Assembly (NCBI GenBank): GCA_947453445.1
Contig: CANGGP010000002.1
Location: forward strand, 1 to 64,000
Reading direction: 5' to 3'
Source of the DNA: Sphingobacteriaceae bacterium
GTDB lineage: Bacteria; Bacteroidota; Bacteroidia; B-17B0; Aurantibacillaceae
DNA length: 64,000 bases
Made by a program: the position numbers and the translations under genes. Below are positions 31,497 through 36,293 of the stretch, one piece after another. The notes under the pieces are model-generated. The model searched no databases. It had not been told where the DNA came from and was given only the letters and a program-made list of their open reading frames with translations. Every line of letters begins with the position of its first letter. Positions within the stretch are counted from its first letter, which is position 1.

Positions 31497-31547
31497 TTAA
31501 AATTCACAATTATTCGGGGTTTTTGGAAAAGGAATGATGTCGCGCGA
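31497..31547 (-). pseudogene. Detached asnS 3'-end remnant (copy B)
   Basis: Minus strand encodes RDIIPFPKTPNNCEF* matching the asnS end [15 protein letters not shown]. Confidence 0.9.
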
Positions 31548-32491: not shown

Positions 32492-32524
32492 TTAAAACTC
32501 ACAATTATTCGGTGTTTTTGGGAA
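32492..32524 (-). pseudogene. Detached asnS 3'-end remnant (copy A)
   Basis: Minus strand encodes FPKTPNNCEF*; exactly 831 bp from the asnS stop at 33323. Confidence 0.9.
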
Positions 32525-32561
32525 AGTTAGTTTAAATGGTTTATTAATATAAATATTAGAA

Positions 32562-33322: not shown

Positions 33323-34756
33323 TTAAAACTCACAATTATTCGGCGTTCTTGGAAAAGGAATTACATCGCGTACATTGCCCATGCCGGTTACAAACATGAT
33401 CAATCGTTCGAAGCCTAAGCCAAAGCCAGCATGTTCGCAGGCCCCAAAGCGGCGGGTATCGAGGTACCAATCTAATTCGTGGTGTGGAATGCCGATTTCT
33501 GTCATGCGTGCTTCCAATTTATCTAAACGTTCTTCGCGTTGTGAGCCGCCAACAATTTCGCCAATGCCCGGAAATAAAATATCCATGGCGGCAACGGTTT
33601 TACCGTCTTCGTTTTGACGCATGTAAAAGGATTTAATTTCTTTCGGGTAATCGGTTAAGATCACCGGTTTTTTAAAATGTTTTTCAACCAAATACCTTTC
33701 GTGCTCGCTTTGCAAATCAACGCCCCATTTATCAACGAGGTACTGAAATTTCTTTTTCTTGTTGTGATTGCTTTCACGCAAAATGTCGATGGCTTGTGTA
33801 TAGGTAATGCGCTCAAATTGGTTGTCTAAACAAAATTGTAATTTGTTCAGCAAGTTCATTTCGCTGCGTTCGTTTTGGGGTTTTTGTTTTTCTTCTTCCT
33901 CTAAACGGGCGCTTAAAAATTCAATGTCTTCGCGGTTTTTCTCTAATGCTGTTTTAATCACATATTGCAACATTTCTTCGGCCAAATCCATGTTGTCTTT
34001 TAAATTGCAAAAAGCCATTTCGGGTTCAATCATCCAAAACTCGGCCAAATGTCTGGCGGTGTTGCTGTTTTCGGCCCTAAAGGTTGGTCCGAATGTATAA
34101 ATATCGCTAAAGGCCATGGCGGCTAGTTCACCTTCCAACTGTCCGGAAACCGTTAGGTTGGTTGATTTGCCAAAAAAATCTTGTTTGTAATCAACGTTTC
34201 CGTTTTCATCTTTTGGCGGATTAGCGATATCAAAATTGGTGACGCGAAACATTTCGCCGGCCCCTTCGGCATCGCTTGAGGTGATGATGGGGGTGTGGAT
34301 ATACACAAAACCTTTTTCATTAAAAAACTGATGGATGGCGAAAGCCAAGGTGTTGCGCACGCGGAACACGGCGCCAAAAGTATTGGTACGAAAACGCAAG
34401 TGGGCGATTTCGCGTAAAAATTCTAAGCTGTGTTTTTTTGGTTGCAGAGGATATTTTTCGGCATCGCTGTCGCCAAGGATTTCAACCTGTGTGGCTTTTA
34501 ATTCAACGGTTTGTCCTTTGCCTAAGGATGGCACTAAAATACCAGTAGCACTAATTGCCGCGCCGGTAGTGATGCGTTTTAAAATGGATTCATCGGTGGT
34601 ATTAAAGTCAACCACCACTTGTAAATTGTTATTGGTAGAGCCATCGTTGAGGGCGATGAATGAATTATTTCTGAAGGTACGCACCCAGCCTTTAACGGTA
34701 ATGCTTTGTTCGGCTGCAGGTGTTTTTAAAATATCTTTAATACGTAATCGGGCCAT
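33323..34756 (-). CDS. asnS: Asparagine--tRNA ligase
   Basis: [97 protein letters not shown]. Confidence 0.97.
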
Positions 34757-34828: not shown

Positions 34829-34990
34829 CTAAATTCCATGTCCAACGAGGTTGCGTCTTAACCAAATATCTAAGTCGCCAGTAAATCTTGGGTGTCCATG
34901 AACACCAACAGCATAACCTCCAACGATTAGGTATTCAACCTTGTGTTTTTGTAACAATATGACAAATTCTTTGAAGTCTTGGCTGAACAT
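34829..34990 (-). pseudogene. Truncated MNT-type nucleotidyltransferase (DUF6036/AbiEii-like) N-terminal relic, 53 aa
   Basis: MFSQDFKEFVILLQKHKVEYLIVGGYAVGVHGHPRFTGDLDIWLRRNLVGHGI*: GG..(x)..DLD hallmark, then stop. Confidence 0.8.
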
Positions 34991-35123
34991 TATTATTTAA
35001 ACTAAAATAGTGTTGTCTTAATATTTCAATAGCGGAAAGTCTATCCATATCGCTCCTCGTCAGCCAATAATTAAAAGTTGATTCTTTCGCCTTTAAACTT
35101 GTTATTTTCAAGATTTTCTCCAC
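34935..35123 (-). CDS. Small partner protein preceding the nucleotidyltransferase (GTG start)
   Basis: MEKILKITSLKAKESTFNYWLTRSDMDRLSAIEILRQHYFSLNNNVQPRLQRICHIVTKTQG; YW...ERL.A.E.LR..Y....PRLQR layout typical of the ORF upstream of such NTases; TATCTTTG box 5 nt upstream. Confidence 0.6.
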   Translation of the reverse strand: MEKILKITSLKAKESTFNYWLTRSDMDRLSAIEILRQHYFSLNNNVQPRLQRICHIVTKTQG

Positions 35124-35296
35124 TATAACAAAGATACAAAAATTTGAGGGTTTTGAACGCCTTTCTATCAATCAATCAGGCTAATTAGAATTATTAAAGC
35201 ACTATATATTGAGTTAAAAATTGCGATTCTAACCCCAAATAGTTTCCTATTTTATAACACTTGCAATTATTTAAAATTAAACGCTGTTCTCCCGAA

Positions 35297-35497
35297 TAAA
35301 ATTAATCGCCAGAAATGAAAGTTTGCGACAGGGACTGAACGAAAGCCCACACGCAGACAAATGCTATGATTTTGTTGGTTGAAGCGGCGACCGGAGGAAG
35401 CCCCTGCAAACCTACAAAATCAGCATTTGGCAAGCGTGGCTGAAGAGAAGGCCCGGTGGCAATTGGCTTTTTTGAATTTACAACAGCCAATTGACAG
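35297..35497. repeat. Degenerate copy of the 268-bp module with a different hairpin insert
   Basis: AATTAATCGCCAGAAATGAA...GCGACAGGGACTGAACG parallels AATTAATCTCCGGAAACGAA...GCGCAAGGGATGGAGCGG; inner IR CAAATGCTATGATTTTGTTGG/CCTACAAAATCAGCATTTG. Confidence 0.65.
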
Positions 35498-35765
35498 GCG
35501 CCCAAAAAATATAATCACTAAACTTTGGCCTTCACTTCCTTAAAGACCGTCACGTCAATATCATCCGCCATCGCCTGATAATTAAAAATCAAATCGTGTA
35601 TAAAATTAATCTCCGGAAACGAATTGCTGCGCAAGGGATGGAGCGGTTTGTTTGAGCTCCTTTATCGCGGGGTTCTTTTTTCCCGCGATAAAGAGCGAGC
35701 CGCGAGAGCCCGACCCATGATTGAAAAAACTTCCAGAGATTTTTAGGTTTTTTCAATCATGGGAT
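35498..35765. repeat. 268-bp tandem module copy 1 (3' end of small gene plus hairpin element)
   Basis: GCGCCCAAAAAATATAATCACTAAACTTTGGCC... identical to the next copy except about 5 positions. Confidence 0.97.
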
Positions 35766-36033
35766 GCGCCCAAAAAATATAATCACTAAACTTTGGCCTT
35801 CACTTCCTCAAAGACCGTCACATCAATGTCATCCGCCATCGCCTGATAATTAAAAATCAAATCGTGTATAAAATTAATCTCCGGAAACGAATTGCTGCGC
35901 AAGGGATGGAGCGGTTTGTTTGATCTCCTTTATCGCGGGGTTCTTTTTTCCCGCGATAAAGAGCGAGCCGCGAGAGCCCGACCCATGATTGAAAAAACTT
36001 CCAAAGATTTTTAGGTTTTTTCAATCATGGGAT
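35766..36033. repeat. 268-bp tandem module copy 2
   Basis: Same as copy 1; period exactly 268; a third partial unit begins at 36034 inside the intact small-gene locus. Confidence 0.97.
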
Positions 36034-36047
36034 GCGCCCAAAAAAAA

Positions 36048-36293
36048 TTAAACCTTTTGTTTTAGCTCTTCAAAGTCTTTAGCATCAATATCATCCGCCA
36101 TCGCCTGATAATTAAAAATCAAATCGTGTATAAAATTAATCTCCGGAAACGAAATGGCCCGAATTTTATGCAACACCACCTTAGTACCAAGCATTTGTAG
36201 TTCTTCAAAATTTCGTTCATCCAAAATTTTAAAATAGCTCTTGTTATTTTTATACATACGGTACAGGGGAAAGTTTATATCTTCGGACTTCAT
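36048..36293 (-). CDS. Small conserved protein of unknown function (81 aa), intact parent of the duplicated 3' ends
   Basis: MKSEDINFPLYRMYKNNKSYFKILDERNFEELQMLGTKVVLHKIRAISFPEINFIHDLIFNYQAMADDIDAKDFEELKQKV. Confidence 0.75.
   Translation of the reverse strand: MKSEDINFPLYRMYKNNKSYFKILDERNFEELQMLGTKVVLHKIRAISFPEINFIHDLIFNYQAMADDIDAKDFEELKQKV

Follow-up and report, generated by a model that had tools for sequence, protein, structure and literature searches.

Tandem duplication of a gene end together with a Flavo-1-like structured element in a Sphingobacteriaceae genome

Introduction

The Flavo-1 RNA (Rfam RF01705) was defined computationally (Weinberg 2010, PMC2864571), and in RNA-seq of Flavobacterium psychrophilum its matches were sense, antisense or untranscribed alike, with no function drawn from them (PMC9723704). 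For the REPINs of Pseudomonas, tandem clusters that take in flanking sequence have been described (PMC3116915). Here we analyse a window of 64,000 nucleotides (positions 1 to 64,000 of contig CANGGP010000002.1, assembly GCA_947453445.1, from a Sphingobacteriaceae bacterium), in which copies of a gene end alternate in a tandem array with copies of a structured element whose 5' domain is the same as that of Flavo-1 (AGGGAT-GNAGCGG ... GCGGAAAGCCCG), within the same phylum.

The element resembles REPINs and BIMEs in being short, extragenic, hairpin-forming and dispersed, sometimes in inverted pairs, and in forming flank-including tandem clusters at this array and at other loci; the tandem element-plus-flank arrangement thus has a precedent in Pseudomonas (PMC3116915). 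It differs from them in being longer, in having a three-way junction with covarying termini, in lacking a consistent RAYT neighbour and in pairs that mix two subtypes. With MITEs it shares small size, non-coding, dispersed and non-autonomous character and matching inverted ends, but these ends measure only about 5 nt, there is no constant target duplication, and no parent transposon with the same ends was encountered at the loci examined. The arrays recall integron cassettes in combining a payload with a folded element in a uniform orientation, although the payloads here are gene fragments or spacers. Identity with integron attC was rejected: the pattern RYYYAAC...GTTRRRY is absent, and the element ends are GCGNNAGGG...NNCGCCC in alignment A1.

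Results

The intact gene beside the array (36048-36293, minus strand) encodes 81 aa and belongs to a conserved single-copy family of unknown function, with orthologues in 31 of 41 genomes; it has no Pfam match and nothing near cut-off in NCBIfam. Several of the orthologues are directly followed by asnS, which in our window (33323-34756, minus strand; Pfam tRNA-synt_2, synteny in relatives) lies about 1.3 kb from the gene, the interval being filled by the array and by a broken two-gene unit. The latter, at 34829-35171 between asnS and the array, resembles a nucleotidyltransferase-type toxin–antitoxin pair, and in the relative G009 (L049) a similar reading frame directly follows the same gene. 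Three copies of the 3' tail of asnS itself, at 31500-31544, at 32495-32539 and at the end of the gene (33326-33370), bracket two copies of a 178-aa lipoprotein-like gene, a further case of payload between repeated gene ends, here with no element.

From position 35296 onwards the order of the array is remnant tail, element E1, tail, element E2, tail, element E3 and intact gene. As the first-pass annotation had described, positions 35498-35765 and 35766-36033 form two tandem 268-bp units (together 35498-36033) of 98% identity; we count five differences, at 35541, 35554, 35560, 35656 and 35736. Direct comparison bears out its further claim that each unit carries, on the minus strand, the 3' tail of the gene at 36048-36293, joined to an element that does contain two perfect hairpins. 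The sequence GCGCCCAAAAAA, reported as the opening of each unit and as recurring at 36034, is indeed found there; its recurrence follows from GCGCCC being the 3' terminus of the element itself, the remainder being A-rich flank, and a unit is therefore most aptly noted as [gene tail + element]. The gene-tail copies lie on the minus strand at 35518-35623 (copy A, FPEINFIHDLIFNYQAMADDIDVTVFKEVKAKV and a stop; direct repeat D2, tblastn match 72%) and at 35786-35891 (copy B, ending in VTVFEEVKAKV and a stop; direct repeat, tblastn match 76%). Elements E2 (35629-35771) and E3 (35897-36039) lie on the plus strand, are almost identical, and each score 41.8 bits with our model R1; E2 adopts the predicted three-way-junction fold and consists, in order, of a GCGCA-A-GGG core, hairpin 1, a GCCCG core, hairpin 2 and TGCGCCC.

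Two further parts lie beyond the 268-bp units. Element E1 (35325-35503, plus strand) is of the same element type and of a different, diverged subfamily: it resembles at least seven other places in the genome at 70-86% identity, most of these matches beginning at the GCG near 35325, and it ends in GCGCCC at 35503, while a search with model R1 at E<=1 misses it. Abutting this oldest element is X0 (35296-35319, minus strand), a decayed gene-tail remnant (ATAAAATTAATCGCCAGAAATGAA) in which 21 of 24 positions agree with the terminus of the gene tail and which stands in the same register to its element as the tails within the two units; in shuffled sequence no such 24-nt match is expected by chance, and a low-scoring alignment continues further. 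With three elements and the remnant X0, the array is older than it looks and has grown in more than one round.

The tail copies are 99% identical to the gene over about 72 nt before the junction, and then diverge over the terminal 36-43 nt (the last 11 or so codons and the stop), where identity is about 60% by eye and the reading frame is kept. The tail of the intact gene is the one closer to the tails of relatives, which have an acidic residue before the aromatic one. The first-pass annotation had proposed that the copies derive from a full paralog or evolved as coding sequence; the coding-like, separately evolved character of the tail fragments holds, and the paralog was dropped as their source, since a genome search including tblastn found no other copy of the parent gene. 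On the most economical reading, the two tail versions would be two alleles of the gene joined by recombination within the array.

The 268-bp unit, taken at first as a mobile module, is not present elsewhere; what recurs is the element plus its local flank. A search with the hairpin part gave a dispersed family in the genome and in the class, so that the element is not confined to this locus. Copies (consensus TGCGNN-A-GGG ... CCC-G-[hairpin]-NNCGCCC-AAA, length about 55-180 bp) are scattered across the genome itself and are present in 31 of 60 near relatives and in 46 of 119 genomes drawn class-wide; the pattern of the 3' half reaches 47 copies per genome, against a reversed-pattern control near zero in all but one GC-rich genome. 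Eighteen IMG/VR contigs, as catalogued (L186-L203), contain this 3'-half pattern; a blastn search for plasmid or phage carriage was without match. A scan of contigs with an 18-base pattern gave 39 matches, most of them apparently due to chance, four in Flavobacteriaceae being real elements.

The element has fixed ends: in 325 pairwise comparisons of similar copies from unrelated sites, the matching drops to background 1-2 nt before GCG and is lost within a few nucleotides after CGCCCAAA. Its predicted fold is a three-way junction, in which the terminal stem (GCGNN/NNCGC) closes over the Flavo-1-like domain (GGG...CCC) and the second hairpin; conservation lies in the junction core and termini, and variation in the arms of the hairpins. 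When matches were chosen without regard to the 5' end, the variable bases of the terminal stem paired in 20 of 22 (8.2 in shuffles, maximum 16), the two non-pairing matches being apparently one mis-parsed copy and one non-element. An alignment of 32 copies has 110 cells with two-sided changes, against 34 in shuffles; since this alignment was partly selected by terminal-stem pairing, the count favours the first helix and is less affected in the others. Wobble pairs make up 3 of about 548 paired cells in the conserved helices and 6% in full minimum-energy folds.

RF01705 models only one of the three stems and has neither the terminal stem, the second hairpin nor the fixed ends. Its scores for E2 (17.6 bits) and E3 (15.2 bits) are under the curated cut-off of 42, and a scan of the whole window with RF01705 gave nothing at cut-off. 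Sibling copies in the same genome pass it (G000:C14, 62.3 bits; G000:C48, 59.0 bits), and L172, L183 and L254 are further sister copies with the same ends that match RF01705. Weak Rfam matches to eukaryotic snoRNA and miRNA families were set aside as chance.

Repeated flanks also occur at other loci. Among 106 elements whose left and right flanks were compared, 6 (at 4 loci) have direct repeats scoring >=30; when placements were drawn at random within these sequences, 19 of 6000 reached this score. Roughly 5% of elements, a minority, have such flanking repeats. The anatomy of our array is found at two loci of other genomes: at G041:C154 the terminal 67 nt of a reading frame of 185 aa flank one element on both sides, each copy with a stop, and at G009:C244 copies of a 159-nt block, which includes a gene tail and extends past the stop codon into non-coding sequence, surround two elements. 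Element-plus-spacer arrays are present at G000:C33 and, in another family, at C12 and C154 of G143. Most copies have no target-site duplication, the flanking repeats, where present, measuring 19-159 nt, and target-site duplication was dropped as a general rule because such repeats occur in a minority of elements. In the tandem 89-bp units of L320 (G143:C12) the Flavo-1-like domain of some elements lacks its inner hairpin, apparently through recombination of its internal repeat. At L174 (G021:C10) a stretch of about 510 nt that includes an element occurs twice, 2051 bp apart, behind an Rhs-like C-terminus, an arrangement resembling displaced Rhs tips.

Comparison among relatives gives some measure of mobility. 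At one G007 locus (L255) about 300 bp with a head-to-head element pair lie where the congeneric genomes G006, G018, G020 and G050 have abutting convergent genes (L272, L274, L277, L278), and a second G007 pair has no counterpart in five relatives. Orthologous copies are, on the other hand, kept across several species (L109/L113/L117/L119; Mesonia and Salegentibacter). With insertions in some relatives and orthologous retention in others, the element has moved, either rarely or long ago. Our genome gives no sign of recent transposition, the nearest relatives of E2 elsewhere being only about 80% identical, and this counts against a mobile-element explanation.

Head-to-head pairs, present in G041, G007 and G011 (L166-L171, L254, L255), have 11-29 bp between the 5' ends with spacers that are not conserved, and usually combine one GAGCTC-subtype and one Flavo-subtype element; at the array studied here the copies run in the same direction and there is no inverted doublet. 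L254 (G007) and L265 (G011) are pairs at the same place that differ completely in the second hairpin of one element; the hairpins appear to have been exchanged or rebuilt.

Discussion

We suggest that the element is probably a short, dispersed, non-autonomous structured DNA of MITE/REPIN-like kind, the site of which has been tandemly duplicated together with the neighbouring gene end. The element would have settled just downstream of the stop codon of the parent gene, and repeated tandem duplication would then have copied, in each event, the element and the neighbouring gene end. Such duplication may have arisen from stalling or breakage of replication at the hairpins or from unequal recombination between repeats, and the resulting repeats would permit further unequal exchange, with the two tail alleles joined through recombination. 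Since only its 3' end was duplicated, the intact gene would have kept its full reading frame, and the tail copies would be by-products. The array is thus not a new gene but a local duplication centred on a small element that looks mobile. That E1 and E2/E3 belong to different subfamilies at equivalent sites is a feature that simple tandem duplication fails to explain, and it suggests that elements may have been exchanged at their ends.

The abrupt passage from the near-identical block of about 72 nt to a diverged, in-frame tail looks like a crossover, and might instead reflect a cassette that targets gene ends, in which circles of [gene tail + element] integrate at the 3' end of a gene by site-specific or homologous recombination and replace its tail. 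Integrative elements likewise act at gene 3' ends, in the arrays the payload is bordered by repeats at either side, E1 and E2 are of different types but have a site and flanks in common, and the three asnS tails surround two copies of another gene. Yet no recombinase or circle is known, the ends are unlike integron attC motifs, the repeat at G009:C244 runs on beyond the stop, and ordinary tandem duplication with recombination of alleles gives the same picture; we therefore regard such a cassette as rather unlikely. The element might also act as RNA, that is as a Flavo-1 non-coding RNA, a cis-regulator or a terminator, with the tandem copies representing a duplicated regulatory 3' region. Its first domain is that of Flavo-1, siblings score well above the Rfam cut-off, pairing is strongly conserved and the elements are intergenic, often between convergent genes. 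Orientation to the neighbouring genes is, however, not fixed (33 convergent, 42 same-strand, 14 divergent), and this, with the mixed orientation of the matches in F. psychrophilum (PMC9723704), favours an element acting at the level of DNA; the near lack of wobble pairs in the conserved helices, the sharp DNA boundaries and the appearance of the element as an insertion argue in the same direction, and we consider the RNA explanation unlikely.

The copies might also be REPINs proper, mobilized by a RAYT (Y1) transposase, given that head-to-head pairs resemble REP doublets, that RAYT genes exist in this genome and that at L302, L303 and L321 a few hundred bp separate an element from a Y1 gene; the first two of these loci carry little weight, having been picked from result lists for their nearness to such a gene. 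Of 30 Y1 loci from genomes that have the element, not one has a copy within 1.5 kb (a count that covers the subtypes found by model R1, which misses some), and over these and about 38 more loci, which include a few chosen for proximity, a RAYT-type gene is not consistently beside copies. Genomes G033 and G039 are rich in elements and have no Y1 gene, and the two RAYT-like genes of our genome (L037, L038) are flanked by different, unrelated palindromes, TTTTGCCTCTCTGAGGCAA and TTTCCAAAGTTTAGGAACTTTGGAAA. RAYT as the mobilizer is unsupported at the 30 and roughly 38 Y1 loci, the one-sided neighbours being isolated and in other families, and REPINs in the strict sense seem to us quite improbable. 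An artefact of assembly, finally, might be suspected in a draft with many contigs and with repeats at several contig ends, but the two units differ at five positions, the array lies away from the ends of its 130-kb contig, and other genomes have arrays like it; this makes a plain artefact very improbable.

Returning to tandem duplication around a structured DNA element, the arrangement is real and recurrent and involves a widespread, little-understood element, and its interest lies chiefly in recasting Flavo-1. Tentatively, and as a possibility to which we give distinctly less credence than to the duplication itself, Flavo-1 may not be an RNA gene but one arm of a class of mobile structured DNA spread across the Bacteroidia; this class, moved by an enzyme other than RAYT, would promote duplication and replacement of neighbouring gene 3' ends and so swap C-terminal tails between alleles. 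Flavo-1 has been a candidate non-coding RNA without a function since 2010, and the full element described here makes a mobile reading at the level of DNA directly testable. Such a reading would account for the inconsistent orientation of Flavo-1 in transcriptomes and, if the link to duplicated gene ends holds, the element would offer a simple route for changing the C-termini of neighbouring genes.
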